Below, one piece after another: positions 28,051 through 50,678 of a DNA stretch of 64,000 bases. How positions within the stretch are numbered: the stretch's first letter is position 1; each line of letters opens with the position of its first letter. A program made the position numbers and the translations under genes. Location of the stretch: assembly GCF_000223375.1 (NCBI RefSeq), contig NC_017385.1, forward strand, positions 124,001 through 188,000, in the 5' to 3' direction. The notes under the pieces were generated by a model. That model had not been told where the DNA came from, did not search any database, and saw only the letters and a program-made list of their open reading frames with translations. The DNA comes from Ketogulonicigenium vulgare WSH-001 (GTDB lineage Bacteria > Pseudomonadota > Alphaproteobacteria > Rhodobacterales > Rhodobacteraceae).

Positions 28051-29013
28051 GACCACATTGCCACCCGCGCCGCGTTCGACCATCTCATGCGCGGCCGCAG
28101 CCTCGTCCAGCGCAAAGCGCGCGGCGATTGTGGGGCGAAGCTGTCCCTGTGCCAGAAGTGGCAACAGATCGGCGCGGGCGCGGACGATATGCGCGGGTGT
28201 CAACTTCATCCCCTGCACAAAACTGATCCGCGCGCCTTTACGGGCAAAGCCGTAATAGTCGAGGGTCGGAAATTTATCGCTGGTTGCGGAATAGCTGGCG
28301 AGCGTGCCGTGGTCAGCCAGCATCGCCAGATTGCGGGTCTGATTGGCGCCGAAATCCACTTCGACAACCCGCGGCACGCCTGCGCCGCCAGTCATATCGG
28401 CGATGAACTGGGATAGCGCCGGATCATCGGGCGCGCGCACGGCCAACGCCCCGCGTGCCGCCGCCCGCGCCGCGGAATCTGCGCTGCGTGCCGTGGCAAC
28501 GACCCGCGCGCCAAAGGCCACGCCAAGCGCGACCGCCGCTTCGCCCACAGCGCCGCCGCCGCCCTGCACCAGCAGCACCTGATCCATCACCGGCCCGTCG
28601 GCCAGAACCGCCAACCACGCCGTCAACAGCGGCACGCCAAGGCTTGCACCCTCGGCAAAGTCCAACGCATCGGGCAAGGGCAGGACACGCCACGCGGGGA
28701 TGCGCAGATAATCTGCCGCCGTGCCCGCGCCATGGGGTGCACCAAACACCCAAACGCGCGCGCCAATCGCCAGATCGACCCCCGCACCCACCGCTGTCAC
28801 CACCCCCGCGCCGTCACTATGGGGAATAAAGAAATCTTCGGGCGGCGTGCCACCCGTCCAGCCCGCACGGGCCTTGGTGTCATGGGGGTTGATGCCGCTG
28901 GCGTGCAGGCGGATGATCACCTCACCCGCGCCTGGCGCCTCTGGTATGGGGCGGATCTCCAGGTGCAGCACCTCGGCCGCAGGCCCAAGGCGGCGGTAGC
29001 CAACCGCCCGCAT
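28036..29013 (-). CDS. Quinone oxidoreductase-type NAD(P)H-dependent dehydrogenase (zeta-crystallin family)
   Basis: 325 aa zinc-free medium-chain dehydrogenase. The N-terminal GroES-like fold (LHASGINPHDTKARAG) is followed by a Rossmann fold with VQGGGGAVGEAAVALG. Zinc-ligand cysteines are absent, as in quinone oxidoreductases. The start at 29013 (MRAVGYRRLGPAAE) fits the family; the longer frame runs back into the M28-like gene, whose stop codon overlaps this ATG by one base. It is therefore probably cotranscribed with that gene, although a metabolic connection is not evident. Confidence 0.85.
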   Translation of the reverse strand: MRAVGYRRLGPAAEVLHLEIRPIPEAPGAGEVIIRLHASGINPHDTKARAGWTGGTPPEDFFIPHSDGAGVVTAVGAGVDLAIGARVWVFGAPHGAGTAADYLRIPAWRVLPLPDALDFAEGASLGVPLLTAWLAVLADGPVMDQVLLVQGGGGAVGEAAVALGVAFGARVVATARSADSAARAAARGALAVRAPDDPALSQFIADMTGGAGVPRVVEVDFGANQTRNLAMLADHGTLASYSATSDKFPTLDYYGFARKGARISFVQGMKLTPAHIVRARADLLPLLAQGQLRPTIAARFALDEAAAAHEMVERGAGGNVVLMLN

Positions 29014-30692
29014 CACAGCGCGACCGCCTGCGCCGCGCGCGCGAACACATCGACCAGCCGGTTCTGCCCGCGCATAAGCTGCGCGCGCAAAAAGCCCTGC
29101 TGATCCGCCGGGATCTGGTGCCACAGCATCGCATCGGCAATCGCTGGCAGCGGCGGCACATTCAACGCCGGATCATGCGAGAATCGCGGCCCCCGTGTGA
29201 AATGCGCGGGGATGAGCAGGCGCGACAGCGCCATCACCTTATCATTGAACACAGCGGGCGGCAGATCTTGCGCATAAAGCGCGTCAATCGCAGCCGCCAA
29301 TGTCCCCGCCGCCTGCGCCGCCGGTGTCAGATCGAATGCGCAAGCCGCCTGATATTGCGCAATTGTTTCAACATATTCAGCCGCGCTCAGCCGCCAATCG
29401 AACGGCAGTTGATCCGCCTGCGCCAACCCCGCCACGGCGGCGAAATAGAGCGCGATATCCTTTTGCAGCACATCGCGGTCGGCAATTTCGATCGTGTCAT
29501 TCTCGGTGTGCCAGGCGATATTGCCGCCGCAACCGCCCACGACGTAATAGCCCTTTTCGGCCAGAACCTCGGGCGGGAGGTTGGACGAGGCATTGAACAG
29601 GCCCGTCACGCCAATATTATTGAACGTATAATCAGAGTTGCGCTGCGGGCGTTTGCCGCATGCAACCTGCCCGGCCACATCCGCAACCACTTGGCTCACA
29701 TAGGGGGCCGCCTCGGCGGTGCAGGCGATCTCGGCATAGCTGGTCGCCCAGCGGCAACCGGGACTGTCGCAATTCAGATGCGCGACGCAGTGGCGATCCA
29801 GATCGCGCGCGAATGTATCGGCGAACCAGGCCGAGCCGCCATAGCGCCCCGTCGAATGCCCCGGCCACCATGCAATCCGCACCCCCCGTTTTAGCGTCCC
29901 GCGCTGCTGCCACAGTGCCAATGCGACGGCCAGCATACAGGCGTTGCCGGTGCCATTATCGCCCACGCCCTCGCGCCAACTGTCGTAATGACCATGGAGC
30001 AGCACGAAATCTTCGCTGTCCTTGCCGGGGATTTCGACGACCGGCAGATATTGCGGGAACCAGCCAGTCTCGAGTTCGGTCCGGATCACCACCTGACCGC
30101 CGGCCTGCGCCAATGCGATCAGCGCCTGTCCATCGGGCTGATTGACTGCAACCGATGGAATTTTGGGCAGTCGCGCCAGATCCGGCAGCTCGGGCGTGCC
30201 CCAGATGGTCGAGACTGTGCCCCAGTGAATATCCACGCCCGGATTGACCACAATCGCGCCAATGGCGCCCGCTGCCTCTAGCCCTGCTATGAAATTGGGC
30301 AGGGCAAACCCCTCGATAACCGCAATTTTTCCGCGCGCCGCCGCCAATGCACCCAGTGCCGCAGGCGAGCGGTCCAGCGGCGTGCCGCCACCTGCGTCGG
30401 GCAGATAGATCAGATCACCCGTAATCCCTTGGGGGCAGTGCAGCGTGAAGGCAGGCGGCTTTGCCCGCAGAGTTTTTCCGCCAACAATCTGAACTTGCGC
30501 GGTTTTTGGCAGTGACAGGTAAAGCTCTGGCTGATGCATCTGAACCGGCAGACCCGCTGCGCGCAGATGATCTGCGATGATTTGCGCCCCGCGGTTGGCC
30601 TCGACCGGCACCTCGCGGTCCTGGGACGCGAATTGATTGACCAAAGTCCAGGCGATATCAGTGACGCGGTTCAGCTCATTGGACGACAGCAT
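29013..30692 (-). CDS. M28-family peptidase-like protein with PA-type insertion (paralogue 1)
   Basis: 559 aa, no signal peptide. Between about residues 100 and 220 there is a PA-like domain (VIEGFALPNFIAGLEAAGAI). The M28 core follows with metal-ligand candidates His and Asp in HGHYDSWREGVGDNGTG, Asp in NCDSPGCRW, and His in WHTENDTIEIAD. Where M28 aminopeptidases carry the Glu-Glu pair (base plus zinc ligand, AEELGLIGS-like), this protein reads PGHSTGRYGGS. It shares this with the paralogue at 37917. It may be an aminopeptidase variant or have another activity. Divergent from the IclR gene, with which it shares a 106-base control region. Confidence 0.8.
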   Translation of the reverse strand: MLSSNELNRVTDIAWTLVNQFASQDREVPVEANRGAQIIADHLRAAGLPVQMHQPELYLSLPKTAQVQIVGGKTLRAKPPAFTLHCPQGITGDLIYLPDAGGGTPLDRSPAALGALAAARGKIAVIEGFALPNFIAGLEAAGAIGAIVVNPGVDIHWGTVSTIWGTPELPDLARLPKIPSVAVNQPDGQALIALAQAGGQVVIRTELETGWFPQYLPVVEIPGKDSEDFVLLHGHYDSWREGVGDNGTGNACMLAVALALWQQRGTLKRGVRIAWWPGHSTGRYGGSAWFADTFARDLDRHCVAHLNCDSPGCRWATSYAEIACTAEAAPYVSQVVADVAGQVACGKRPQRNSDYTFNNIGVTGLFNASSNLPPEVLAEKGYYVVGGCGGNIAWHTENDTIEIADRDVLQKDIALYFAAVAGLAQADQLPFDWRLSAAEYVETIAQYQAACAFDLTPAAQAAGTLAAAIDALYAQDLPPAVFNDKVMALSRLLIPAHFTRGPRFSHDPALNVPPLPAIADAMLWHQIPADQQGFLRAQLMRGQNRLVDVFARAAQAVAL

Positions 30693-34187: not shown

Positions 34188-36250
34188 CCACCCCCGATTA
34201 CCGGATCGGCTGCGATGTCGGCGGCAGCTTTACCGATTTCATCCTGTTCGATGCGGCGACCGGCGCGCTCGAGACGCTGAAAGTCGCAACCACACCCGCC
34301 GCGCCCGAACAAGGGATCATGCAGGGCCTATCGCAACTGGCGGCCCGCCACCCGGATCTTGCCGCGCATCTGAACACGTTCATCCATGGCACAACACTGG
34401 TCATCAACGCCATTTTGGAACGCAAAGGCGCGAAAACCGCCCTGCTCACCACCGAAGGTTTTCGCGATATCATCGAGACGCGGCGTGAAATCCGCTATGA
34501 CATCTATGATATCCGCCAGACCTACCCCTCGCCCATCGTGCCGCGCAATCTGCGCCGTCCGGTGCCCGAGCGGATGGGCCATGACGGCCAGATCGTGGCC
34601 CCCCTCGACACCGCCAAGGTGCGCGCGGCACTGATGGAACTGGCGAACGAGGGCGTCGAATCCGTCGCGGTGTGCCTGATCAATGCCTATGCCAATCCCG
34701 CGCATGAGCGCGAGATCGCCAAGATCGCGCAAGACCTGCCGCTGACGCTGTCCTTGTCGCTGTCGGCGGATATCCTGCCCGAAGTGCGCGAATTCGAACG
34801 CTTTTCCACCACCGCGCTGAATGCCTATGTCAAGCCGAAGGTCGACCGCTATCTGGGTGCGCTCGAGGAAAACCTGCGCGGCGATGGCTTTGCCGTGCCG
34901 GTCTATCTGATGCAATCGGGCGGCGGCATTGTCACCGCCGCAACCGCCCGTGCCGCGCCCGTGCGTCTTGCCGAAAGCGGGCCGGTCGGCGGCGTTCTGG
35001 CCGCGCGCGATCTGGCGCTGGCGGCGGGTTATCATGATGCCATCGCCTTTGATATGGGCGGCACCACCGCCAAGACCTGCCTGATCCGCAAGGGCGAGAT
35101 GCCCGTCACCCGCGCCTATGAGGTCGACCGCGTGCACCGTTTCAAACGCGGCTCGGGCACGCCACTCGCGGTGCCGACGGTCGATCTGATCGAGATCGGC
35201 GCGGGCGGCGGCTCGATCGCACATATCGACGGGCTGGGTCGGCTTTGTGTCGGCCCCGAAAGCGCGGTCGCCGACCCGGGCCCCGCCTGTTTCGGGCGCG
35301 GCGGAGCGCTGCCCACCGTCACCGATGCAAACCTGCTGCTGGGCTATCTGGACCCCGCCGAATTCGCGGCGGGCGGCATCAGGCTTGACCGCGCGGCGGC
35401 CGAGGCTGCGGTCGCGGCGCTGGCAGTCCCGCTTGGCCTGTCAGTGCTGGGCACCGCCGCCGCCATGATCGAGGTGGTGAATGAAAACATGTCGCAAGCC
35501 GCGCGCATCTATGCGGCAGAAAACGGGGGCGATCTGACCCGCAGCACCATGGTCGCTTTTGGTGGCGGTGGGCCGCTGCACGGGGCCGAGGTCGCGCGCC
35601 GCCTGCGCGTGCCGCGCATTCTGGTGCCCGAGGCGGCTGGCGTCTTTTCCGCGATGGGTTTCCTGATGGCGACGCCGCGCTACGAGGTCGCCCGCTCGCA
35701 CCCGCGGCGCTTGTCGGCCACCACCGCGCCAGAGCTGCAAGCGATCCTTGACGATCTGCTGGCGCAGGCCCGTAGCGTCGTGGCCGCCGCCGCCCCCGAT
35801 GCCCCCCAAGGCGCCAGCCTGTTCGCGGATCTGCGCTATTTCGGTCAGGGTCACCAGTTGCGCGTGCCGCTGGATGATCTGTCCCATGGCGCCATCACCG
35901 CCGCTTTCCGTGCCGCTTATTTGCAAAGCTACGGCTATGCCTATGACGATATGGAGGTTGAACTGGTGACCCTGCGGGCCGAGGTTCACGCCAGCAGCAC
36001 CGGCCCCACCTTTCGCCCGCTGGCAGGGATCGGCGCGGTCAGGCCGACGCGCCTCGCCTGGGACCCCATCGCCCGCGCGATGGTGCCGCATCAGGTCGTG
36101 GCCTTTGCCACCATGAAGGGCCAGATCACCGGCCCCGCGCTGATCAACCAACCCGGCGCCACCATTCACGTCAGCCAAGGCGCGACCGCCACCCGCAACC
36201 CCGCCGGCTGGCTGGACATTTCGCTGCCCCAAGAGGTGCCCCATGATTGA
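34184..36250 (+). CDS. hyuA: Hydantoinase/oxoprolinase family protein, subunit A (copy 1)
   Basis: 688 aa. The ATP-binding ASKHA-type fold shows CDVGGSFTDFILFD near the N-terminus, FIHGTTLVINAILERKGAKT, and DMGGTTAKTCLI around residue 290. HyuA works with HyuB in ATP-dependent opening of cyclic amides such as 5-oxoproline or N-methylhydantoin, or in related carboxylases. Which substrate is used cannot be read here. ATGA overlap with the upstream peptidase and an 8-base overlap with hyuB. Confidence 0.88.
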   Translation: MTTPDYRIGCDVGGSFTDFILFDAATGALETLKVATTPAAPEQGIMQGLSQLAARHPDLAAHLNTFIHGTTLVINAILERKGAKTALLTTEGFRDIIETRREIRYDIYDIRQTYPSPIVPRNLRRPVPERMGHDGQIVAPLDTAKVRAALMELANEGVESVAVCLINAYANPAHEREIAKIAQDLPLTLSLSLSADILPEVREFERFSTTALNAYVKPKVDRYLGALEENLRGDGFAVPVYLMQSGGGIVTAATARAAPVRLAESGPVGGVLAARDLALAAGYHDAIAFDMGGTTAKTCLIRKGEMPVTRAYEVDRVHRFKRGSGTPLAVPTVDLIEIGAGGGSIAHIDGLGRLCVGPESAVADPGPACFGRGGALPTVTDANLLLGYLDPAEFAAGGIRLDRAAAEAAVAALAVPLGLSVLGTAAAMIEVVNENMSQAARIYAAENGGDLTRSTMVAFGGGGPLHGAEVARRLRVPRILVPEAAGVFSAMGFLMATPRYEVARSHPRRLSATTAPELQAILDDLLAQARSVVAAAAPDAPQGASLFADLRYFGQGHQLRVPLDDLSHGAITAAFRAAYLQSYGYAYDDMEVELVTLRAEVHASSTGPTFRPLAGIGAVRPTRLAWDPIARAMVPHQVVAFATMKGQITGPALINQPGATIHVSQGATATRNPAGWLDISLPQEVPHD

Positions 36251-37916: not shown

Positions 37917-39662
37917 TTACATCACCGTTTTGATCAGCCGGGTCGCTTCGCGCATCGCGCCTGCGGTGCGATTTGCGCCGCGGATGATCTGGTTCACCGT
38001 GATCGGATACAGCGCCTCGGGCACATGCGGCAGGTCGATGACCTTTTCGATCAACGGCAAGGGCGCGCGCGTGATCGCCGGATCATGGGTGAAACGCGGC
38101 GCGGTGGTGTAGTTCACCGGGATCAAGATACGGGCAAGGCGCATCAGCACCTCGTTCGCATCGGGCGTGGCAATGGCACCCGCCGCAATCGCTGCATAAA
38201 AAGCCGCCAACTGATCATCAAGCGCCTTGATGCTGCTGACAACCGCCGACAGATCGACCGCATCGCCGGCCGCTTTGGTATAGGTTGCTGCGCTGGCGGC
38301 GAATTCCTTGGTCGTCTCGCGCCAATCGACGGGCAGCAGCGGCGTGTTCGCCACGCGCCAGATCGCATCCAGATAGATCTTGATATCGGTCATCAGGATA
38401 TCTTTGTCGGCGATATCCATCGTGTCGTTTTCCGTGTGCCATGCGATATTCCCACCGCAGCCCGACACGGCATAATAGCCTTTTTCCGCGCGCAGATCGT
38501 CTGGCATGGTCGAGGACAGCATGAAGAACGACGAAATCCCGATATTGTTAAAGGAATAATCCCCCGCCTGATGTGGGCGGTCAAAGATCGGCGTCTGTCC
38601 TGCGACCTTTTCGATTACGTCTTTCACCAGCGCGAAGGTCTCGGGCATGGCGGTCGTTGCGTGATACGAGGTCGCCCAGCGGCAACCGGGGCTGTCGCAG
38701 TTGATTTGCATGACGCAGTTCTCGTCCAGATCCAGCGCGAAAGCATCCGAATACCAGGTCGATCCGGCATAACGCCCGGTCGAATGCCCCGGCCACCATG
38801 CGATCCGCACCGAACGATAGAGCTTGTCGCGATTTTCCCACAAAGCGCGGGCAATCTCGAGCATGGCGGCGTCCCCGGTGGCGTTATCACCGACGCCGAC
38901 ATCCCAGCTATCATAGTGACCATGTAGAAAGACGAATTTCTCGGCCTCGACCGTGCCGGGGATCTCGACCGTCGGGATGGCCTGTTCGAACCAGCCTTCC
39001 TGCATCTCGGTCTTGATCGTCGCCGTCGTTGCGCCCGCTTTCGCACGTTCAATCAGCTTGCCGCCGACCAGCTTGTTCACAGCGATCACCGGAATCGTCG
39101 GCTTGCGGCCAAAGTCATCCAGATCGGGCGAGCCCCAGACCGTCGTGCAGGTGCCCCAATGCGTATCAACGCCCGGGTTCACCGCGATCAGCCCGACCGC
39201 ACCCCATTCCATCGCAATCGCCGCCAGCGCGGGATTGCCAAAGCCTTCGGTGATCAGGATCTTGCCCGCGACACGCGCCCGCATCTCGTCATCGGTGCCG
39301 ACGCCCTCGCCAAAAAAGGCGATCGCCTTTTTATTATAGGACCGCAGCGAGGATTTGTTGGCGGGGATATAGAAGAGTTCCGCGCTGACGCCCTCGGGGC
39401 AGCTTTTCGAGGACGAGGGGGGCTTGGCGAACATCTCCTCACCGTCCAGCGTCACGCTGGCCGATAGCGGGATCGACAGCGCCACGATGGGGCGATGGAT
39501 CACCACCGGCAGCCCTAGCGCGCGCAGCCGCGCGCCGATCAATTCGCCGGCGCTATTGACGTCCTCGGGGCGCCAGCGTTCGCGGCCAGCAAAGGTTGTG
39601 ACCAAATCCCAAGCGTGTTCAGGCACGACTTGCTCAATTATTGAGAATTCTTTGTCTAACAT
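37917..39662 (-). CDS. M28-family peptidase-like protein with PA-type insertion (paralogue 2)
   Basis: 581 aa, clearly paralogous to 29013-30692. Shared segments include NPGVDTHWGTCTTVWGSPDL, FLHGHYDSWDVGVGDNATGD, WWPGHSTGRYAGSTWYSD, NCDSPGCRWATSY and WHTENDTMDIAD. It has the same His-Ser in place of the M28 Glu-Glu pair, so the change is not a random mutation. No signal peptide. It is divergent from the second importer operon, sharing its 165-base control region, as paralogue 1 shares one with iclR. Confidence 0.8.
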   Translation of the reverse strand: MLDKEFSIIEQVVPEHAWDLVTTFAGRERWRPEDVNSAGELIGARLRALGLPVVIHRPIVALSIPLSASVTLDGEEMFAKPPSSSKSCPEGVSAELFYIPANKSSLRSYNKKAIAFFGEGVGTDDEMRARVAGKILITEGFGNPALAAIAMEWGAVGLIAVNPGVDTHWGTCTTVWGSPDLDDFGRKPTIPVIAVNKLVGGKLIERAKAGATTATIKTEMQEGWFEQAIPTVEIPGTVEAEKFVFLHGHYDSWDVGVGDNATGDAAMLEIARALWENRDKLYRSVRIAWWPGHSTGRYAGSTWYSDAFALDLDENCVMQINCDSPGCRWATSYHATTAMPETFALVKDVIEKVAGQTPIFDRPHQAGDYSFNNIGISSFFMLSSTMPDDLRAEKGYYAVSGCGGNIAWHTENDTMDIADKDILMTDIKIYLDAIWRVANTPLLPVDWRETTKEFAASAATYTKAAGDAVDLSAVVSSIKALDDQLAAFYAAIAAGAIATPDANEVLMRLARILIPVNYTTAPRFTHDPAITRAPLPLIEKVIDLPHVPEALYPITVNQIIRGANRTAGAMREATRLIKTVM

Positions 39663-39827: not shown

Positions 39828-41504
39828 ATGTCGATTACACGTCGCGCTCTGCTGCGCGGCAGCGCTTATGCTGCCCTTGGCGCAGGACTTTCCACGACTT
39901 TGCCGCGAATCGCCTTGGCACAAGACACCAGTGCGATCCGCCCGATCACCCTTTATAGCCGCGCCCAGGCGGCGAACCCGCAGCAGTATCAATCCGCCGA
40001 ATTGATCGCCCAAGCTTGGAGCGATCTGGGCCTGCAGGTCACGGTGAACGGTCTGCCGCAAAACCAGCTGTCGGATATCGTCTGGTACAACCGCAACAGC
40101 TGGGATGTAACCATGTGGCAGATGGTCGGCCGCCCCGAGCGGTCCGACCCCGATGATTTCGTGATGAACCTGTTCCATTCGTCGAACATCGAGACCGGCT
40201 ATAACTTTGTCGGCTACAACAACCCCGACTATGATGCCGCCGCTGAACAGCAGCGTCTGGCGGTCGACCGCGACGCCCGCCACGCCCTGATCATCAAGGC
40301 GCAAGAGCTGGTGAACGCCGACCAGCCCTATTCCTTCCTTGTCTATCCGACGAAATCCTATGCTTTTGATAAAACCGTGCTGGATGGCGCGACCATGGTC
40401 AATCAGCCCGGCCTCGGCATCCGCAACTTCCTGTCCTATGTCGCGGTCGAACCGCTGGGCGCGCAGCGCGATCTGATCACCAACACCGCGAACGAGCTGA
40501 ACGCCATCAACCCGTTCTATATCTCGGGCGGCGGCGATAGCTGGATCACCGAATGTATCTGGGACCGCGTCATGCGCATCGGCGAGGATGGCCTGCCGCA
40601 GCCATGGGCCGCAGAATCGGTCGTCTGGGACGAGGCCGGCACCACCGCCACCATCACGCTACGCGACGGCATGACCTTCCACGACGGCCAGCCGGTGCGG
40701 ATCGAGGATGTGATCTTCTCGCTTGAGGCGCCGCAGGGCGAAAACGTCGCGCCGATGTATCGTCCCTTTGTCACGCCCATCACCGCCATGGCCAAGGTCG
40801 ATGACCGCACCATGACGTTGACGCTGGACCAGCCCAATGCGGCGTTCGAGACCTCGACCCTGTCGAAAATGAACATCGTCCCCGAACATGTCTGGTCGCC
40901 GCTGCTGGAACGTTTGTCGGCAGGTGAGACCGCCGAAAGCGTGCTGGAAGAAAGCCGTATCGGCTCGGGCCCGTTCAAATTCGACCGCTGGAACCAATCC
41001 GAAGTGGTGCTGTCGTCGGTCAAAGACCACTTCGCCGCGCCCAAGATGGATCGCGTGATCATGCGCGTCGTCCTGAACGTCGAAGCCGCGCTGGGGATGC
41101 TGCGTTCGGGCGAGCTGAACTTCCTGACCGACTATACGGGCGATCCGCAACTGCTGCTGGATGCCGCCGCCGCCGATGGCGATATCGAGGTGGTGGATGT
41201 CGTCGATATGGGCTTCCAGTTCCTGGGCTATAACCTGCGCCGCGCGCCGTTCAGTGACCCGGCTTTCCGCCGCGCGCTGTCCTTTGCGATCAACCGCCGC
41301 CTGATCCTGGGCGCGGCGTACAACGGCTTTGGCGTTCCGGCGAACAGCCATGTCTCGCCCGCGCTGCCCTTCTGGTACGACACCCGGACCGAGGAGATCC
41401 CCGTCGGCCCCGAGGTCGCCATCCAGATGCTGGAGGAGGCCGGCTATTCCATCGTGAACGGCCGTCTGCACTATCCCGCAGGGCAGACCGAAACCCTGCA
41501 ATAA
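39828..41504 (+). CDS. ABC solute-binding protein family 5, apparently circularly permuted
   Basis: 558 aa with a twin-arginine-like signal (TRRALLRG, cleavage near LAQ). Residues ~38-210 match the C-terminal part of family-5 binding proteins (AELIAQAWSDLGLQVTVNGL; PDYDAAAEQQRLAVDRDARH; QPYSFLVYP). Residues ~222-558 match the N-terminal part (INPFYISGGGDSWITECIWD; TITLRDGMTFHDGQPVRIED at 275-294) and end just after VAIQMLEEAGYSIVNGRLHY. In normal paralogues, such as 11926 and 59026, that AGY segment is followed by the part found here at the N-terminus. Each half occurs once, so this is a permutation and not a duplication. The frame is intact, with ribosome site GGAGGGAAA. It feeds the importer 41554-45489. 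Confidence 0.85.
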   Translation: MSITRRALLRGSAYAALGAGLSTTLPRIALAQDTSAIRPITLYSRAQAANPQQYQSAELIAQAWSDLGLQVTVNGLPQNQLSDIVWYNRNSWDVTMWQMVGRPERSDPDDFVMNLFHSSNIETGYNFVGYNNPDYDAAAEQQRLAVDRDARHALIIKAQELVNADQPYSFLVYPTKSYAFDKTVLDGATMVNQPGLGIRNFLSYVAVEPLGAQRDLITNTANELNAINPFYISGGGDSWITECIWDRVMRIGEDGLPQPWAAESVVWDEAGTTATITLRDGMTFHDGQPVRIEDVIFSLEAPQGENVAPMYRPFVTPITAMAKVDDRTMTLTLDQPNAAFETSTLSKMNIVPEHVWSPLLERLSAGETAESVLEESRIGSGPFKFDRWNQSEVVLSSVKDHFAAPKMDRVIMRVVLNVEAALGMLRSGELNFLTDYTGDPQLLLDAAAADGDIEVVDVVDMGFQFLGYNLRRAPFSDPAFRRALSFAINRRLILGAAYNGFGVPANSHVSPALPFWYDTRTEEIPVGPEVAIQMLEEAGYSIVNGRLHYPAGQTETLQ

Positions 41505-41553: not shown

Positions 41554-42531
41554 ATGAAATACATGCTGTCCAGATTGTTCTATTCGCTCGTGGTCCTGTG
41601 GATCGTGGCGACAATCCTGTTCTTCATGTTTCGGCTAATGCCGGGGACGCCGCTTGCGGCCTTCATCGACAATACCACGACCAAGGAACAACAAGACGCG
41701 ATCATCGCGCAGTTCGGCCTCGACCGTAGCCTGTTCGAGCAATACCTGTCCTTCCTTGCCAATCTGGCGCAGGGGGATCTGGGCCAGTCGTTTTTCCACA
41801 AACGTCCCGTGATGGATGTGGTGATGGAGGCCCTGCCCAATACGATCATCCTGACCATGACCGGTCTGGTCGTCGCCTATATCTTTGGCGTGCTGGCGGG
41901 GGCTTACCTCGCGTGGAAACGCGGCAGTGTGGCCGAGGCGATCGGTATCCCCATCACCCTTGCCACCCGCGCCGCGCCCGAGTTCTGGCTGGGTATGGTG
42001 CTGCTGGCCATCTTTAGCTTTCAACTGGGCTGGTTCCCGGCGGGCGGCGCGAATTCGGTTGGCATGACCTATGACAATCAATGGCAGCGGGTCTTCTCAT
42101 GGGATTTCCTGCGCCACCTCGCCCTGCCCGCACTGACGCTGGCCATCTATCTGCAAGGCCTGCCGCTGTTGCTGATGCGATCCAATATGATCGAGATCCT
42201 GCAAGAGGAATTCATCACCATGGGCAAGATGAAGGGTCTGACCCCGCGCACCATCGTGTTGAACCATGCCGCGCGCAACGCGCTGCTGCCGGTCGCCACT
42301 GCCTTTGCGCTGGGGGTTGGCGGCGCCATCGGCGGCAATGTGGTGGTCGAGACGATCTTTAGCTGGCCCGGCATCGGGCGCCTCTTGGTGAATGCGGTTT
42401 CCGCCTCGGACTATCCGCTGGCGCAGGGGGCCTTCTTGCTCATCACCTTTGTGCTGATCGCGATGAATTTCATCGCGGACATGACCTATCACCTTCTCGA
42501 CCCGAGGATTCGCCTTGCAGCCAGCAATTGA
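41554..42531 (+). CDS. ABC transporter permease (DppB type), second importer
   Basis: 325 aa. N-terminal helix with ILFFMFRLMPGTPLAAFID, an EAA loop near GKMKGLTPRTIVLNHAARN, and C-terminal DMTYHLLDPRIR. AAGGAG precedes the ATG. It overlaps the next permease by 17 bases. Confidence 0.9.
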   Translation: MKYMLSRLFYSLVVLWIVATILFFMFRLMPGTPLAAFIDNTTTKEQQDAIIAQFGLDRSLFEQYLSFLANLAQGDLGQSFFHKRPVMDVVMEALPNTIILTMTGLVVAYIFGVLAGAYLAWKRGSVAEAIGIPITLATRAAPEFWLGMVLLAIFSFQLGWFPAGGANSVGMTYDNQWQRVFSWDFLRHLALPALTLAIYLQGLPLLLMRSNMIEILQEEFITMGKMKGLTPRTIVLNHAARNALLPVATAFALGVGGAIGGNVVVETIFSWPGIGRLLVNAVSASDYPLAQGAFLLITFVLIAMNFIADMTYHLLDPRIRLAASN

Positions 42532-43462
42532 AAACGCCCCGCGCAAAGCCCTGCCTGATCTAAGCCAAGGCAAACTGAATTCCGGTCTGTGGCCCCGCTT
42601 TATGCGCGGCATCAACACCTTTCTTTCGGTGCCGCGCCAGAATGCCTATGCGATGATCGGGCTGATCATCTATGCGATCTTTATCCTGACGGCGGTCTTT
42701 GCCGATGTGCTGATGACGCATCGCCCACTCGAGATTCTGTTCACCGACAGCTATCAGTTGGCGCGCAATATCGCCCCCGGCCCAGAACATCTGCTGGGTA
42801 CCACCTATGGCGGGCGCGATATCTATTCGCAGCTGGTGATCGGCACGCGCTCGGCGCTGCTGGTGGGGGTCACCGCCGCGGTCTGCGTCGTGGCGATTGG
42901 CACGGTGGTCGGGCTGATCTCGGGCTATTTCGGCGGCTGGGCCGATAACCTGCTGATGCGCCTGTCCGATATCGCGCTTGGCATTCCGTTTTTGCCTTTT
43001 GTCATCGTGCTTGCCTCGTTCCTTGGCGCCAGTCAGATGAATGTCATCATCGGTATCGCCCTGCTGCTGTGGCCAAACTCGGCCCGGGTCATCCGCTCGC
43101 AAGTGATGTCGCTACGCGAGCGCGCCTTTATCGAGGCCGCCCGCGTCACCGGCGCGGGACAATGGAAGATCCTGTTCGTCCATATCGCGCCCAATGTGCT
43201 GTCGCTGGCGTTTCTTTACACATCCGTCGCGGTGGGCTGGGCGATCTTGACCGAGGCCTCGGTCAGCTTCTTGGGCTTTGGCCCGTCCAATACCGTCAGC
43301 TGGGGCTATATGCTGCAAGACGCCTATGCCAGCCAAGCCCTTGGACGCGGCCAATATAATTGGTTTGTGCCGCCCGGCCTCTGCATCGTTCTGGTCGTCA
43401 TGGCGGGTTTTTTCATCAGCCGGGGCTTTGAAGAAGTCCTGTTCCCGAAACTGAAAGGCTGA
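42515..43462 (+). CDS. ABC transporter permease (DppC type), second importer
   Basis: 315 aa. Membrane segment near residues 45-68, motif HLLGTTYGGRDIYSQLVIGT, EAA loop SLRERAFIEAARVTGAGQWK. The TTG at 42515 is the supported start: GAGGA lies 7 bases before it and no ATG is suitably placed. It terminates 3 bases before the ATPase gene. Confidence 0.88.
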   Translation: MQPAIENAPRKALPDLSQGKLNSGLWPRFMRGINTFLSVPRQNAYAMIGLIIYAIFILTAVFADVLMTHRPLEILFTDSYQLARNIAPGPEHLLGTTYGGRDIYSQLVIGTRSALLVGVTAAVCVVAIGTVVGLISGYFGGWADNLLMRLSDIALGIPFLPFVIVLASFLGASQMNVIIGIALLLWPNSARVIRSQVMSLRERAFIEAARVTGAGQWKILFVHIAPNVLSLAFLYTSVAVGWAILTEASVSFLGFGPSNTVSWGYMLQDAYASQALGRGQYNWFVPPGLCIVLVVMAGFFISRGFEEVLFPKLKG

Positions 43463-43465
43463 CCC

Positions 43466-44479
43466 ATGTTGCTTTCGGTCAAAGATCTGAAAATCCACTA
43501 TCAATCCCCGCGCGGCACCGTGCAGGCCGTCGACGGCATCAGCTTTGACGTGCCCGAGGGCAAGGTCGTCGGCGTCGTGGGCGAGTCTGGCTGCGGCAAG
43601 ACAACCGCCGTGCGAGCCCTGACCCGCGTCATGCCCTCGGTCGCGAAATTTGCCGGCGGCGAGGTGCTGTTTGACGGCAAGGATCTGTTGTCCTTGTCCG
43701 AATCCCAGATGAACGCGCTGCGCTGGCGCGATATTTCCTATATCCCGCAAAGCGCGATGAACGCGCTTGATCCCGTCTGGCGCGTCGGCGATCAGATCAT
43801 CGAAGTGCTGGTGAAACGCGGCGGCATGAAAAAGCCCGCCGCGCGCACCCGCGCCGAAGAGCTGTTCGCGATGGTCGGGCTGGAACGCAAACGCCTGCGC
43901 GACTACCCCCACCAGTTTTCCGGCGGGATGCGGCAACGCGCCTCGATCGCGCTGGCGCTGGCGCTGAACCCGCGCCTTGTCATCGCGGACGAGCCGGTGA
44001 CCGCGCTTGATGTGATCATCCAACGCCAGGTGCTGGACACATTCCTGCGCCTGCAACGCGAGACCGGGATCTCCGTCGTGATGGTCACGCATGATATCTC
44101 GGTCGTGGCCTATGTCTGCGATTATGTCGTCGTGATGTATGCGGGAAAGGTCGTCGAAAAGGGCCCCGTGCGCGACGTGCTGACCCAGCCGTCCCATGCC
44201 TATACGATCGGCCTTTATAACGCTTTCCCCGAGCTGTCCGAGGATGCCGCGCGCGAGCTATCCCCGATCGAGGGCGGCCCGCCCTTGCTGCTGAACCCGC
44301 CGACGGGCTGCCGCTTTCGCGCGCGCTGCCCCTTTGCCCTGCCCGTCTGCGCCCAGGAGCCACCCGAAGTGCAGGTCGGCGCGGGCCACACCGCCATGTG
44401 CCACCGCGCGCATGAGGCCGAAGCGCTGCGCGCCGCCGCGCGCGATCCGAAAATCTGGCAGGGAGTTGTCACACAATGA
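43466..44479 (+). CDS. ABC transporter ATP-binding protein (DppD type), second importer
   Basis: 337 aa. Walker A GESGCGKT, signature FSGGMRQR, Walker B LVIADEPVTALD, H-loop MVTHDI. The C-terminal oligopeptide/dipeptide extension has the conserved cysteines (TGCRFRARCPFALPVC), which the ATPases of the first importer lack. ATGA overlap with its partner. Confidence 0.9.
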   Translation: MLLSVKDLKIHYQSPRGTVQAVDGISFDVPEGKVVGVVGESGCGKTTAVRALTRVMPSVAKFAGGEVLFDGKDLLSLSESQMNALRWRDISYIPQSAMNALDPVWRVGDQIIEVLVKRGGMKKPAARTRAEELFAMVGLERKRLRDYPHQFSGGMRQRASIALALALNPRLVIADEPVTALDVIIQRQVLDTFLRLQRETGISVVMVTHDISVVAYVCDYVVVMYAGKVVEKGPVRDVLTQPSHAYTIGLYNAFPELSEDAARELSPIEGGPPLLLNPPTGCRFRARCPFALPVCAQEPPEVQVGAGHTAMCHRAHEAEALRAAARDPKIWQGVVTQ

Positions 44480-45489
44480 CCACCCAATCCGACACGCTGG
44501 TCTCGGTCGAGAACGTCTCGAAAAGCTTTACCCTCAGCCGTTCTTTGTCCGACGTGTTCAATGGCCGCCACCCCAAAGTTGATGCGGTCTCCGAGATCAG
44601 CTTTACCCTAAAGCGCGGCGAAACCATTGGGATCGTGGGCGAATCCGGCTGTGGCAAGACCACGCTGGGGCGCATGCTGCTGAAACTGATCACGCCCACG
44701 GGCGGCGCGATCCGCTTTGACGGGGCGGATATCAATGCGCTATCGGGCGAATCCGAACTGGCCTTTCGGCGCCGCGCGCAATTGGTGTTCCAGAACCCGT
44801 TCGATGCGCTGAACCCGCATTTCACCATTCGCCGCAGCCTGTACGAACCGCTGCTGAACACCCGCGTCCCCGCCGCCGAACACGACCGCATGGTGGGCGA
44901 GGCGATGGTGCGCGTGCAGCTTGACCGCATGTTGCACTTGCTCGACAGCTATCCGCACCAACTGTCGGGCGGGCAGTTGCAGCGCGTGGTGCTGGCGCGG
45001 GCGCTGGTGCTGCAACCCGATTTCATCGTCGCGGACGAGCCGGTCTCGATGCTCGACGTGTCGGTGCGCGCCGGGATCTTGAACGTGCTGCGCGAGGTGC
45101 GTGACACGATGGGCCTTGCCGCCGTTTTCATCAGCCATGACCTCGCCCTTGTGCGCTATGTGTGCGAGCGGACGATCACCATGTATCTGGGCGCGGTGGT
45201 CGAAGACGGCCCGACCAAAGATGTCATCGCGCACCCGCTGCACCCCTATACCCGCGCATTGGTGCAGGCTGTGCCAGTGCCCAATGTCGATCAGTCGCAT
45301 GATCCGCTGCCGTTGATCGGCGCGATGCCTGATGCGCGCAATCCGCCCGCGGGCTGCCGCTTTTCCGACCGTTGCCCGCTGGCCGATGATGGCTGCCGCG
45401 CGGCCCGGCCCCCCTTGCGACCTGTCGGCCCCGGCCGCCGCGTCGCCTGTTTCAAAGTGCCCGCATTCACGACAGCACAGGTGCAGTAA
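44476..45489 (+). CDS. ABC transporter ATP-binding protein (DppF type), second importer
   Basis: 337 aa. Walker A GESGCGKTT, signature LSGGQLQR, Walker B FIVADEPVSMLD, H-loop FISHDL, and the C-terminal cysteine cluster AGCRFSDRCPLADDGC. The stop overlaps the start of hyuB (TAATG), so import and cyclic-amide hydrolysis are translationally coupled. Confidence 0.9.
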   Translation: MTTQSDTLVSVENVSKSFTLSRSLSDVFNGRHPKVDAVSEISFTLKRGETIGIVGESGCGKTTLGRMLLKLITPTGGAIRFDGADINALSGESELAFRRRAQLVFQNPFDALNPHFTIRRSLYEPLLNTRVPAAEHDRMVGEAMVRVQLDRMLHLLDSYPHQLSGGQLQRVVLARALVLQPDFIVADEPVSMLDVSVRAGILNVLREVRDTMGLAAVFISHDLALVRYVCERTITMYLGAVVEDGPTKDVIAHPLHPYTRALVQAVPVPNVDQSHDPLPLIGAMPDARNPPAGCRFSDRCPLADDGCRAARPPLRPVGPGRRVACFKVPAFTTAQVQ

Positions 45490-47312
45490 TGACAGACCAA
45501 CACACGCTGATTGATATCGACGTGCCTGCGGGCACCTGCGATCCCATCACGCTGGAAATCGTGCGCGGCGCGATTGTCGCGACGCAAAAAGAGATGGAGG
45601 CGCTGATCGAGCGTACCGCCATTTCCGCCTTCATTCGCGAGAAGAAGGACTTCTACACTGCGCTGTTCGATGACAAGGGCAAGATGGCCGTGGGCTCGAT
45701 GGTGCCGATCTTTGGCGATCTGACGACGCCGGTGATCGAGAAATTCCCCCGCGCCTCGATGCGTCCGGGCGATCTTTACTGGTATAATGACTGCTATGGA
45801 TCAAAGGGCGCGGTGACACATTCGAATGACCAAGTGCTGCTGGCACCGGTCTTTCACGACAACCGGCTGTGCGCCTTTGTCATGTGTTGGGCGCATTTTG
45901 CCGATATCGGCGGCATTTACCCGGGCTCGATCTCGCCCGATGCGACCTCGATCTATCAAGAGGGGATCATCGTCCCCCCGACCAAACTGGTCGATGCAGG
46001 CGTCGTGAACGAGATGGCGCTGGCGATTTTTCACCGCAATTCGCGCTTTCCGGCGCAATCCGAGGGCGATCTGTCGGCACTGATGGCCGCCGTAGCGCTG
46101 GGATCGGTGCGCGTGGCCGAGATTGTCGCCCTGCGCGGCGCGGATGTGGTGCAGGACGCGCTGGCGCAGCTGCTGGAGCGTAACCGCCTGATGGTGCGCG
46201 GTAAACTGGCCGAGACCTTTGACTACGGCACGTATAAATTCACCGATAGTATCGACACCGATGGCCACGGCAACGGTCCCTTCCGCATCACCTTCAGCCT
46301 GACGCGCGAGCGGGACGCGGACGGCGCGGATATCTTTACCTTTGATGCCTCTGAAAGTGATGATCAGGCCCCCGGCCCCGTCAATCTGCTGATGAACAAG
46401 GGCGTTCCGGGCATGGCCTTGGGGCTTTATTATCTTGGCGGCGATCCCTCGCAGGTCTGTAACGCGGGCGGGCCGCTGTCACTGGACAATGTGATCTATC
46501 GCGAGGGGTCCATCGTGCAGCCGCGCTTTCCTGCGCCTTTGGGGATGCGCGGCCTGACGATGATGCGCACGCTGGCGGTGATCAACGGGCTGGTGAATGT
46601 GGCAGGGGGCGGTGCACCCGCCTCGCATTCTGCCTATGTGATCAATATCATGCGCGGCACCTATACCAATCCGGCAGGGGAATCCGAGCCGTTCTTGCTG
46701 GCCGATGGCATCGGCGTCGGCTATGGCGCGCGCCCCAATGCCGATGGCATTGATGCGGTCTATTTCGTCGCGCAGGAAAACTATCCGGTCGAGTTTTTGG
46801 AAATGGGCTATCCGGTGCGCCTGTTGCGCTATGGCGTGCTGCCTGACAGCGGCGGCCCCGGCAAATTTCGCGGCGGCGTCGGCATTGTGCGCGAATACGA
46901 GATCCTTGCCGACGAGGCGCAAATCGCCATCCGCATCGACGGCGTGCAGAACCCGCCATGGGGCATCGGCGGCGGCATGAGCGGCGGCGTCGGCGCTGCA
47001 ACCGTCAACCCCGGCCAAGCGAACGAGCGTAAACTGCCGCCCCTGTCCGAGGGCACAAAGCTGCATTACGGCGATATTTTGCGGATCGAGACCGGCGGTG
47101 GCGGCGGCTATGGCCACCCGCATGACCGCGCCCCCGCAGATGTGCTCGAGGATGTGTTGGGCGGTTTCGTCACGGCTGAGGCTGCCGAAAAATACTATGG
47201 CGTGAAAATCACCGATGATGCGGTGGATGATGCTGCAACCGCCGCCCTACGCGCGATGCGTCCCGCCACACGTGCCTTCCACCGTAAGGAATATCTTGAT
47301 GAACTCGTCTGA
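45489..47312 (+). CDS. hyuB: Hydantoinase/oxoprolinase family protein, subunit B (copy 2)
   Basis: 607 aa. HyuB motifs: YNDCYGSKGAVTHSNDQV, HFADIGGIYPGSISPDATSI, PDSGGPGKFRGGVGI and GGGGGYGHPHDRAP. It is about 60 residues longer than copy 1, with a C-terminal extension after FVTAEAAEKYYGV. Gene order here is B then A, the reverse of copy 1. It overlaps hyuA by 14 bases. Confidence 0.87.
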   Translation: MTDQHTLIDIDVPAGTCDPITLEIVRGAIVATQKEMEALIERTAISAFIREKKDFYTALFDDKGKMAVGSMVPIFGDLTTPVIEKFPRASMRPGDLYWYNDCYGSKGAVTHSNDQVLLAPVFHDNRLCAFVMCWAHFADIGGIYPGSISPDATSIYQEGIIVPPTKLVDAGVVNEMALAIFHRNSRFPAQSEGDLSALMAAVALGSVRVAEIVALRGADVVQDALAQLLERNRLMVRGKLAETFDYGTYKFTDSIDTDGHGNGPFRITFSLTRERDADGADIFTFDASESDDQAPGPVNLLMNKGVPGMALGLYYLGGDPSQVCNAGGPLSLDNVIYREGSIVQPRFPAPLGMRGLTMMRTLAVINGLVNVAGGGAPASHSAYVINIMRGTYTNPAGESEPFLLADGIGVGYGARPNADGIDAVYFVAQENYPVEFLEMGYPVRLLRYGVLPDSGGPGKFRGGVGIVREYEILADEAQIAIRIDGVQNPPWGIGGGMSGGVGAATVNPGQANERKLPPLSEGTKLHYGDILRIETGGGGGYGHPHDRAPADVLEDVLGGFVTAEAAEKYYGVKITDDAVDDAATAALRAMRPATRAFHRKEYLDELV

Positions 47313-49332
47313 TCTGGCGACTGATTACACCGTTGCTGTCGATATTGGCGGCACGTTTACCGATATCTCGCTGTTGAACCGCGTGACCGGCCAGCGCTGG
47401 CGCGCCAAAACCCCATCCGTGCCGAGCGATCCATCCGAGGCGTTTTTGCGCGGCATCACCATCGCGCTGGAACAGGCGGGCGCGCCTGCCGCGGCGCTGG
47501 GGCGCGTGCTGCATGGCACCACGGTTGCGACCAATATGATCCTGGAAGGCAAAGGCGCGCCGATTGCTTTTCTGACCACCGAAGGGTTCCGCCATGTCCT
47601 TGCCATCGGACGGCAGGATATCCCGCGCAAGGCGAACCTTTATACATGGGTAAAGCCCAAGCCCCCGGTCCCCGCCTCGCGCATTTTCGAGGTGCGCGAG
47701 CGGCTGGCCCCCGGCGGCGATGTGTTGGTCGCGCTTGACGAAGAAACGGTCGTTGCGGCGGCCCGCGCTATCGCAAAGCTGCCGGTGCAGGCGGTCGGCG
47801 TCTCGTTGTTGCACGCTTTTGCAAACCCCGCGCATGAACGCCGCGTGGCCGAGATCCTGCGCGAACATCTGCCCGATCTTTACATCACCATCTCATCCGA
47901 TGTGCTGCCGGTGGTGCGCGAATATGAACGCGGTCTGACCACGGTGCTGAACGCCAGCGTCATGCCGGGCGTCACCACCTATATCGCGCGGCTGGAAGAC
48001 CGCCTGACCAGCGCCAATGCGCCCGCGCCGCTGATGCTGATGCAATCAAACGGCGGCATTGCGGGCGCTGCGAAAATCCGCACCGCTCCCGCGCTGACCG
48101 CGCTTTCTGGTCCCGCCGCAGGTGTGGTCGGTGCGCGCGTCATGGCCGAGGCTTGCGGCATTCGCGATATCATTACCTGTGATATCGGCGGCACGTCTGC
48201 CGATATCTGCCTGATCAAAGATGGCCATATCGGTCTGACACAATCGGGCGCGGTGGGCGATTGGCCGCTGGCGCTGCCGATTGTCGATATGATCACCATC
48301 GGCGCGGGCGGCGGATCTATTGCCAAGGTCGATGCCGGTCGCCTCTCGGTCGGGCCGCAGTCAGCGGGCGCACGCCCCGGCCCTGCCGGTTACGGCCACG
48401 GCGGCACGCTGCCGACTGTCACCGATGCGCATATCGTGCTGGGCCATCTGCCCGCGAGCCTGCTGGGCGGCACGATGCATCTGGATCGCGAGGCGGCACA
48501 GCGCGTCATCCGCGACAGCGTCGCGACCCCCTTGGGCCTGTCGATGGAGCAAGCCGCGCGCGGCATTCTGACCATTGCCGACAATAATATGGTCGGCGCG
48601 ATGCGCGTCATCTCGGTCGAGCGTGGCCATGATCCGCGCAGCTTTGCCCTTGTGCCCTTTGGCGGCGCGGGGCCGCTGCATGGCTGTTCGCTGGCGGAAA
48701 CGCTGGGCACCGATACGGTGGTCATCCCGCCCTCGCCCGGTGTGCTTTGTGCCGATGGGCTGATGGTCGCGGATCTGAAGTCCGAATTCTCGCGCGCGCT
48801 TGGCCGCCCCGGCGCGGTCGATCCGGCGGAATGCGATCCGATCATAGCGGAACTTTCGGCGCAGGCCGATGCCTGGTTTGCCACTGAGAACGTCGCGCCA
48901 GACCTGCGCAACGCACGCACGGTCGCGCTGATGCGGTTCAAGGGCCAAGGCGGCGAGATCGCCGTGCCCTATACATCCGACGGCAAGGTGACCGAGGCGG
49001 CCTTTATCGCCGCCCATACCGAAATGTATGGCTTTGCCCTGCAAGCGCCGGTGGAGCTGGTGACCCTGCGCGTCGAATGCACTGGCACCACGATCCAGCC
49101 CCCCGAAAGCCTGCTGCCCGCAGGCACCGAGGTGCCGGTCGACCAACTTTCCCCCGTCTGGATCGACGGGGCCGAGGTTCAGGTGCCGGTGATCTCGCGC
49201 ACGCGCCTTGGCGCAGGTGCGGTATTTGACGGCCCCGCCATCCTGACGCAACTTGACACGACGACCTATGTCAAACCCGGCTGGCGCGGCACAGTGGACG
49301 CCAGCGGTGCGCTGATTTTAAGGAAAGCCTGA
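47299..49332 (+). CDS. hyuA: Hydantoinase/oxoprolinase family protein, subunit A (copy 2)
   Basis: 677 aa. Motifs: VDIGGTFTDISLLN, LHGTTVATNMILEGKGAP, CDIGGTSADICLIKDG. The start MNSSDLATDYT at 47299 is supported by AAGGA 9 bases upstream; a longer frame runs back inside hyuB. It differs substantially from copy 1 in the spacing and surroundings of these motifs, so the pairs look like separate lineages and not a recent duplication. Confidence 0.88.
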   Translation: MNSSDLATDYTVAVDIGGTFTDISLLNRVTGQRWRAKTPSVPSDPSEAFLRGITIALEQAGAPAAALGRVLHGTTVATNMILEGKGAPIAFLTTEGFRHVLAIGRQDIPRKANLYTWVKPKPPVPASRIFEVRERLAPGGDVLVALDEETVVAAARAIAKLPVQAVGVSLLHAFANPAHERRVAEILREHLPDLYITISSDVLPVVREYERGLTTVLNASVMPGVTTYIARLEDRLTSANAPAPLMLMQSNGGIAGAAKIRTAPALTALSGPAAGVVGARVMAEACGIRDIITCDIGGTSADICLIKDGHIGLTQSGAVGDWPLALPIVDMITIGAGGGSIAKVDAGRLSVGPQSAGARPGPAGYGHGGTLPTVTDAHIVLGHLPASLLGGTMHLDREAAQRVIRDSVATPLGLSMEQAARGILTIADNNMVGAMRVISVERGHDPRSFALVPFGGAGPLHGCSLAETLGTDTVVIPPSPGVLCADGLMVADLKSEFSRALGRPGAVDPAECDPIIAELSAQADAWFATENVAPDLRNARTVALMRFKGQGGEIAVPYTSDGKVTEAAFIAAHTEMYGFALQAPVELVTLRVECTGTTIQPPESLLPAGTEVPVDQLSPVWIDGAEVQVPVISRTRLGAGAVFDGPAILTQLDTTTYVKPGWRGTVDASGALILRKA

Positions 49333-50678
49333 TGGATAAGATTTTCGACTATATCGATGCGCGCGAGGCAGAATATGTCACGCGGGTGATGGATTACGTG
49401 CGTCACCCTTCGATCAGCGCGCATAATATCGGCATCCGCCATGTCGCGGGGCTGCTGGTCGATATGCTGGACGGGCTCGGCTTTCAGACCCAATTGATCG
49501 AGACAGCGGGCCATCCCTTTGTATTCGGGGAGTATCTTGTCGATCCCAGCCTGCCGACCGTGCTGCTTTACGGCCATTACGATGTGCAGCCGCCCGACCC
49601 GCTAGAGAAATGGATCTCGCCGCCCTTTGAACCCACGATCCGCGACGGTCGCATCTGGGCGCGCGGGATCGGCGATAACAAAGGCCAGCATTTCGCGCAG
49701 CTAATGGGGATCGAGGCGCTGCTCGCGGTCACCGGCACCCTGCCGTGCAATGTGAAATTCCTGCTAGAGGGCGAGGAAGAAATCGGCTCGCCCCAGATCG
49801 CGGATTTCGTGGCCGCGCACCGCGAGATGCTGGCCTGCGACCTCGTGATCACATCGGACGGGCCACTACATGATACCGGCCTGCCGCAGGTCACTTACGG
49901 CGTGCGCGGCATGGCCAGTTTCGAGCTGCGGGCAAAGACCGCCGACCGCGACAGCCATTCGGGCAATTACGGCGGCACCATGCCGAACGCCGTCTGGACA
50001 CTGGTGAACCTGCTGGCCACGATGAAAACGCCAGATGGCGAGATCACCATCGCGGGCCTGCACGATCCGATCATCCCCGCCACCAATGCCGAGCGCGCCG
50101 CCGTGGGCGCGCTGCCGCTGGATGTCGATGGCTTTATGGCGGAACTCGGCCTCAAGCATCTGGACGCCCCCGCCAATGTGCCGTTCTATGACCGGCTGAT
50201 GTTCCGCCCGACCCTGACGATCAACGGGCTGCATGGCGGCTACGGCGGCGAGGGCACGAAATCGGTGATCCCCAGCGAAGCCTTTGCCAAATGCGATATC
50301 CGTCTGGTCGAGGCGATGACCCCCGATCAGGTCTTTGATTGCGTGCGTGCCCATGTGGCGATCCATGCGCCCGATGTCGAATTCATCGCGCATGGCGGCA
50401 TGTTGCCGTCGAAGACTTCGCTGGAAAGCCCCTATGCCCGCGCCATCACCGATGGTATCCGCGCGGCGCGTGGCGTGGAACCGCTGCATATTCCCAGCGC
50501 GGGCGGCAGCCTGCCCGATTACGTTTTTACCAAGATCCTCGGCGTTCCGGCCTTTGTCGTGCCCTATGCGAACCATGACGAGGCGAACCACGCGCCGAAC
50601 GAGAACCTGAAACTGGATCTGTTCCACGCCGGTATCCGCACCGGGGCCGCGATGCTGACGAAGATCGGCGGGCAATGA
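49332..50678 (+). CDS. M20-family peptidase, dipeptidase/carnosinase-like
   Basis: 448 aa. Motifs: LYGHYDVQPPDPLEKW (His), ARGIGDNKGQHFAQ (Asp), LEGEEEIGSPQ (Glu pair), VITSDGPLHD (Asp), and YANHDEANHAPNEN near the C-terminus (His). It is of the longer M20 type that hydrolyses dipeptides or N-acyl peptides. It starts within the hyuA stop (TGATG). Last gene of the operon 39828-50678. Confidence 0.87.
   Translation: MDKIFDYIDAREAEYVTRVMDYVRHPSISAHNIGIRHVAGLLVDMLDGLGFQTQLIETAGHPFVFGEYLVDPSLPTVLLYGHYDVQPPDPLEKWISPPFEPTIRDGRIWARGIGDNKGQHFAQLMGIEALLAVTGTLPCNVKFLLEGEEEIGSPQIADFVAAHREMLACDLVITSDGPLHDTGLPQVTYGVRGMASFELRAKTADRDSHSGNYGGTMPNAVWTLVNLLATMKTPDGEITIAGLHDPIIPATNAERAAVGALPLDVDGFMAELGLKHLDAPANVPFYDRLMFRPTLTINGLHGGYGGEGTKSVIPSEAFAKCDIRLVEAMTPDQVFDCVRAHVAIHAPDVEFIAHGGMLPSKTSLESPYARAITDGIRAARGVEPLHIPSAGGSLPDYVFTKILGVPAFVVPYANHDEANHAPNENLKLDLFHAGIRTGAAMLTKIGGQ

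Follow-up and report, generated by a model that had tools for sequence, protein, structure and literature searches.

The 64,000-nucleotide stretch of Ketogulonicigenium vulgare WSH-001 analysed here (the window; contig NC_017385.1, positions 124,001 to 188,000) carries an open reading frame (ORF) at 39828–41504 on the plus strand whose product is a family-5 solute-binding protein with the two parts of its fold in circularly permuted order, as shown by sequence comparison together with a predicted model. Its existing annotation is plain ‘ABC transporter substrate-binding protein’ (ABC, ATP-binding cassette), and the rearrangement is therefore invisible in the databases. We are confident that it serves a Dpp/Opp-type ABC importer as periplasmic binding component and represents a conserved class of family-5 (cluster C) proteins with circular permutation, its binding function being suggested by conservation and operon context.

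Order of the two parts in sequence

The ORF starts with ATG, encodes 558 amino acids and has no internal stop, and each part of the family-5 fold occurs in it once, as stated in the original prediction, which had been made from the DNA letters alone. The Pfam profile PF00496 matched the protein with 217.8 bits, above the gathering cut-off of 32.4, in two stretches of reversed order, the better of which placed residues 257–546 on profile positions 2–284. When the first 216 residues were scanned alone, residues 46–121 aligned with profile positions 294–366 (E 1.6e-6) at 27.9 bits, below the family cut-off. The canonical N-to-C order of the parts, which is a usual trait of the family and lies outside its Pfam definition, is absent from this protein. 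The paralogues at 11926 and 59005, in contrast, each gave a single collinear PF00496 stretch (profile 2–364 and 2–343, respectively), confirming the ordinary order proposed for them; the second had been placed at 59026, slightly different from the start of the listed ORF.

Among solved structures the best match was AppA, with residues 214–545 on AppA 22–349 and residues 64–182 on AppA 384–497. Overall, the C-terminal part of family-5 proteins corresponds to residues 36–210 and the N-terminal part to residues 210–549, as originally observed. Residues 36–210 alone found 26 distinct PDB sequences at E ≤ 1, every match beginning at chain residue 345 or later. All were named binding or ABC substrate-binding proteins by their depositors, except 3rqt (‘putative uncharacterized protein’) and 5isu (‘Lmo0135 protein’, which is the binding protein CtaP). 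A profile search with the same residues matched 28 family-5 sequences at their C-terminal part, with a best E of 1.4e-13. The PDB matches listed for the protein are cluster C proteins, and homology to this cluster is direct. The window's own genome contained 39 matching places, of which only the window gene was collinear over its full length.

Predicted structure and lobe topology

The AlphaFold2 model of the protein had a mean predicted local distance difference test score (pLDDT) of 86.7 and a predicted template modelling score of 0.83. Comparison with E. coli DppA placed both pieces on this protein in permuted order, residues 214–549 of the model on DppA 1–345 and residues 36–210, folded alone, on DppA 342–506, so that the two pieces tile DppA. 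The latter piece comprises the last N-lobe strands and the greater part of the C-lobe's second half. The old chain ends are joined by about three residues, and the new termini have been opened within the C-lobe at the place equivalent to DppA 342–346. An unrelated N-terminal domain of some 200 residues added to a truncated family-5 protein would fit the weak Pfam match of the first residues, which alone stays below the cut-off, but this was rejected as highly improbable, as residues 36–210 find the C-terminal part of family-5 proteins both by sequence, with the 26 solved and 28 profile-matched sequences, and by fold.

We take the lobe limits of DppA to be residues 1–260 plus 479–507 for lobe I and 261–478 for lobe II. 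By these limits, the N-lobe of the permuted protein would be one contiguous stretch and its C-lobe would be built from both chain ends; in canonical members, the C-lobe would be contiguous and the N-lobe built from the two ends. The C-lobe, where the new termini are located, would then carry the export signal or, in some relatives, a lipid anchor. Crude patterns detected a motif like that of twin-arginine translocation (Tat) in 16 of 38 diverse permuted proteins and a lipobox-like motif in 11, some having both. The twin-arginine-like signal noted earlier is thus present in the window protein but is not a feature of the whole class.

Conservation and distribution of the permuted order

An identical protein (558/558 residues) is encoded on plasmid pYP12 of K. 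vulgare Y25, and strain D3_3 has one with 555 of 558 identical residues. The window stretch 28000–51000 is 99.5% identical to the Y25 record, with two mismatches and four gaps (105 gap bases) over 23 kb. Of 7997 candidates scored in a homologue search, 1411 reached E ≤ 1e-3; among the 120 listed, the 119 proteins apart from the query were 531–586 residues long, spanned 93–100% of the query at 53–79% identity, and had the same order. A scan of GTDB species genomes with two peptide patterns yielded 67 loci, many of them from metagenome bins, belonging to Alphaproteobacteria, Trueperaceae, Thermomicrobia, Caldilineae, other Chloroflexota-type bins, Armatimonadota and ANGP1. The permuted order was seen in 62 of these, and the remaining five (L038, L060, L064, L065 and L066), being broken or cut-off ORFs, were left unclassed. 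The possibility that an ordinary gene had been rearranged by faulty sequencing or assembly was rejected, as the independent Y25 and D3_3 records carry the permuted gene, and with the same order in all these homologues we regard it as practically out of the question.

Of 289 genomes of the taxonomic class, 11 yielded matches at E ≤ 1e-50, with 43–100% identity in seven genomes and 27–33% in four, the latter still collinear; a twelfth (G011), found with the query re-cut into canonical order, was classed as permuted. An alignment-model survey of the phylum, in which three first-look candidates were scored per genome, gave at least one of 398 genomes, namely the window's own. Matches of 23–30% identity over 74–95% of the query were obtained from haloarchaeal plasmid records, and all eight cases fetched were permuted (L121–L124, L126 and L131–L133).

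As a control, family-5 ORFs of at least 400 residues in the fetched loci were scored against both the native protein and its canonical re-cut, the repeat loci L095–L103, L113–L117, L068, L120 and L127 being excluded. Of 117 ORFs, 80 were permuted, with one long collinear stretch and a better score with the native query, 25 were canonical and 12 unclassified; as L107, the same gene as L091, was kept, the 80 permuted ORFs represent 79 genes. They came from Alphaproteobacteria, Deinococcota, Chloroflexota-type lineages, Armatimonadota and Haloarchaea. Eleven of the unclassified ORFs matched chiefly via the N part, located near their own start as it is in canonical proteins, and the twelfth (L060) is a broken permuted one. 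Homologues with the same order, proposed earlier as a check, thus support the permutation. No close un-permuted sister was found in the 240 genomes of the taxonomic class searched with the re-cut protein, canonical proteins reaching at most 132.6 bits; the best canonical protein among the fetched loci, from Deinococcus (L129), scored 144 bits with a different program. No viral relatives of the fold were detected at E ≤ 0.001.

Origin of the permutation

The 38 diverse permuted proteins have a common cut site: the chain ends soon after a motif resembling EAGY...G.L.YP and starts at the same strand. Trees were calculated from these proteins (that of the window and 37 relatives, rotated) and 36 canonical ones, mostly alphaproteobacterial. 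In the rotated tree the permuted proteins lay on one side of a branch with a support of 98 in the Shimodaira–Hasegawa-like approximate likelihood ratio test, and the N-part tree, for which no rotation was needed, showed the same split with a support of 99. The C-part tree missed a single permuted clade in a short free search, as would be expected if the permutation had arisen repeatedly, in separate events with a preferred cut site; however, the tree constrained to contain the clade was better by 22.9 log-likelihood units (P = 0.896 in the approximately unbiased test). Together with the two supported branches and the cut shared by bacterial and archaeal proteins, this makes repeated origins unlikely. 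As the trees were quick, their branches long and the canonical proteins few, points that would also leave room for several events, the sequences indicate one old permutation event as likely, not as proven.

Five proteins (L105, L123, L124, L126 and L133) have longer C-terminal tails past the shared cut site. In the haloarchaeal plasmid proteins L123, L126 and L133, the permutation event might have left this tail behind.

Importer operon and neighbouring genes

The features of the permuted gene and its surroundings are listed in Table 1. The gene was correctly described as heading a complete importer operon with HyuB and HyuA: it is followed by two permeases, two ATPases, both Hyu proteins and an M20 peptidase. 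Dpp/Opp-type permease and ATPase genes accompany the permuted binding protein in other genomes as well. In the 50 of the 67 loci that were at least 14 kb long, each permease was present in 49 and the two ATPases in 49 and 47, respectively, HyuA and HyuB each in 26, M20 in 20 and the M28-fold gene in 47, being missing in L002, L005 and L065. HyuB and HyuA resemble the models of caprolactamase CapAB and of oxoprolinase/hydantoinase HyuAB, but as their caprolactamase scores (234 and 472 bits) are far below the cut-off of 1000 bits, this reaction was not assigned to them.

Table 1. Features of the permuted binding-protein gene and its neighbourhood (window positions).
Feature	Position	Strand	Basis
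Second M28-fold gene, His-Ser for Glu-Glu	29013..30692	-	
M28-fold protein, transcribed divergently; accompanies the permuted binding protein in most loci	37917..39662	-	PF04389
Circularly permuted family-5 solute-binding protein, 558 aa	39828..41504	+	ORF, Pfam, PDB matches, structure prediction
Signal peptide with Tat-like motif TRRALL, residues 1–34	39828..39929	+	Sequence pattern; pLDDT <50 at residues 1–30
Ancestral C-terminal part, residues 36–210, on DppA 342–506	39933..40457	+	Sequence and fold
Join of ancestral C- and N-termini, residues 211–213	40458..40466	+	Gap between aligned ranges
Ancestral N-terminal part, residues 214–549, on DppA 1–345	40467..41474	+	PDB matches, model
ABC permease, DppB/OppB type	41554..42531	+	
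ABC permease, DppC/OppC type	42515..43462	+	
ABC ATPase, DppD/OppD type	43466..44479	+	
ABC ATPase, DppF/OppF type	44476..45489	+	
Hydantoinase B/oxoprolinase family protein (HyuB)	45489..47312	+	PF02538
Hydantoinase A/oxoprolinase family protein (HyuA); longest ORF, later start annotated in the Y25 record	47215..49332	+	PF01968, PF05378
M20 family peptidase	49332..50678	+	

In the window region 28036–50678, the importer lies in a compact island together with an IclR regulator, two M28-fold and three M20 genes and two HyuA/HyuB pairs, which has the look of a single unit for the catabolism of a peptide-like compound. A HyuA gene at 34184–36250 and the gene for the first importer ATPase (43466–44479) each form one ORF in the window, whereas the Y25 record annotates each as two coding sequences. 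No tRNA was found in the window.

The distant permuted proteins of Haloarchaea have other neighbours: creatininase and M20 genes in Halalkalicoccus, dipeptide epimerase, D-aminoacylase and M81 genes in Haladaptatus pallidirubidus, an M28 gene of the ordinary Glu-Glu type in Haladaptatus YSMS36, and a coenzyme A (CoA) transferase with a CoA ester lyase in Halorussus. The permuted class is probably spread over several substrates.

The M28-fold protein encoded at 37917 matched PF04389 with 54 bits (cut-off 21.3). The Glu-Glu pair of M28 enzymes provides the catalytic base and a metal ligand. Opposite this pair in 3iib, 3fec and 4twe, the window protein has His-Ser, as do all 74 of the 75 aligned M28-fold proteins that cover the motif, and no NCBIfam model scored above its cut-off for these His-Ser proteins. 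They may constitute a conserved M28 subfamily that is associated with these importers and possibly has no peptidase activity or acts in a different way. Four of the 289 genomes surveyed had the M28-fold gene (E ≤ 1e-80), all among the seven with a close permuted protein; by simple counting, which ignores kinship and was applied after the loci had been seen, the chance of this is 1.2e-7, or 5e-6 without the window's own genome. A canonical family-5 protein adjoins an M28-fold gene of 49.6% identity with the His-Ser motif in Deinococcus peraridilitoris (L129, 119–3440 for the pair), and thus the M28-fold enzyme needs no permuted partner.

The putative ligand

According to PMC12136057, a dipeptide bound to E. 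coli DppA is held at its carboxyl end by R383 and at its amino end by D436. This DppA-type Arg and Asp pair was not found in the permuted protein. Among 68 bacterial sequences, the place of R383 is taken by Gln in 63 (Gln47 in the window protein, a placement that depends on a two-residue ungapped extension of the alignment) and that of D436 by Glu in 64 (Glu104), next to which all 68 have Arg (Arg105); in haloarchaeal sequences position 105 is not always Arg, L122 having Asn and L132 a gap. Gln47 together with Glu104/Arg105 suggests a ligand other than a plain dipeptide, and the HyuBA and M20 genes downstream lead to the guess of an N-blocked, cyclic or lactam-like compound.

The competing reading is that ordinary free di- or oligopeptides are bound, the permutation being a neutral accident and the Hyu and peptidase genes merely salvaging peptides. 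We consider this a serious possibility, somewhat short of an even chance. The conserved acid Glu104, standing where DppA holds the peptide amino group, would also suit a peptide; M20 and M28-type genes surround the operon, and the canonical protein beside the Deinococcus M28-fold relative indicates that this context does not require a permutation. On the other hand, Gln in place of the carboxylate-holding Arg, Arg beside the acid in all 68 bacterial sequences, and HyuA or HyuB in 26 of 50 long loci speak against free peptides.

The mature protein would be expected to close around its ligand as other Venus-flytrap proteins do and to dock on the two permeases encoded downstream, import being driven by the two ATPases. 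The substrate, for which a blocked or cyclic peptide-like compound is our guess, is probably not a plain dipeptide but N-blocked, cyclic, lactam- or hydantoin-like. Once in the cell, it would have its ring or block opened and be hydrolysed through HyuBA, M20 and perhaps the M28-fold protein.

Discussion

The protein shares with DppA (1DPP), AppA (1XOC) and OppA both halves, the fold as modelled, the length and an operon with DppBCDF-type permeases and ATPases; it differs from them in the reversed order of the halves, the position of the new termini and the replacement of DppA R383 by Gln47. The one other natural example that we found in print, TpMglB-2 (Tp0684) of Treponema pallidum, is, according to PMC4990184, a permuted cluster B binding protein for which ‘Type Ic / Cluster Bc’ was proposed. 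Both are natural, conserved circular permutations of an ABC-importer binding protein in which the bilobed fold is kept, but TpMglB-2 is a glucose-binding protein of another structural cluster, and neither its order nor its cut site is homologous. Its permutation, as described there, adds a fourth lobe crossing, whereas the crossing number here would be unchanged if the DppA limits assumed above hold. No permuted family-5 (cluster C) protein was met among the matches listed in open-licence literature, bioRxiv excluded, as judged by titles and the beginnings of abstracts, and within the literature searched this permuted class, although its family is very well known, seems not to have been described.

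A much-studied receptor family thus has a class of rotated order across two domains of life. Tentatively, and as less likely than not, the class may represent a permuted topology of ABC-importer binding proteins that is the second of its kind and independent of the first: an old ‘cluster Cc’ of bacteria and haloarchaea in which the lobes swap contiguity and the anchor sits on the other lobe, and whose main branch would have evolved with a non-canonical His-Ser M28-fold enzyme to import and process a peptide-like compound beyond the reach of ordinary peptide importers. In this class, nature provides a test of how far closing, docking and anchoring depend on where the chain ends lie. The canonical Deinococcus protein beside a related M28-fold protein offers itself as a comparison partner.
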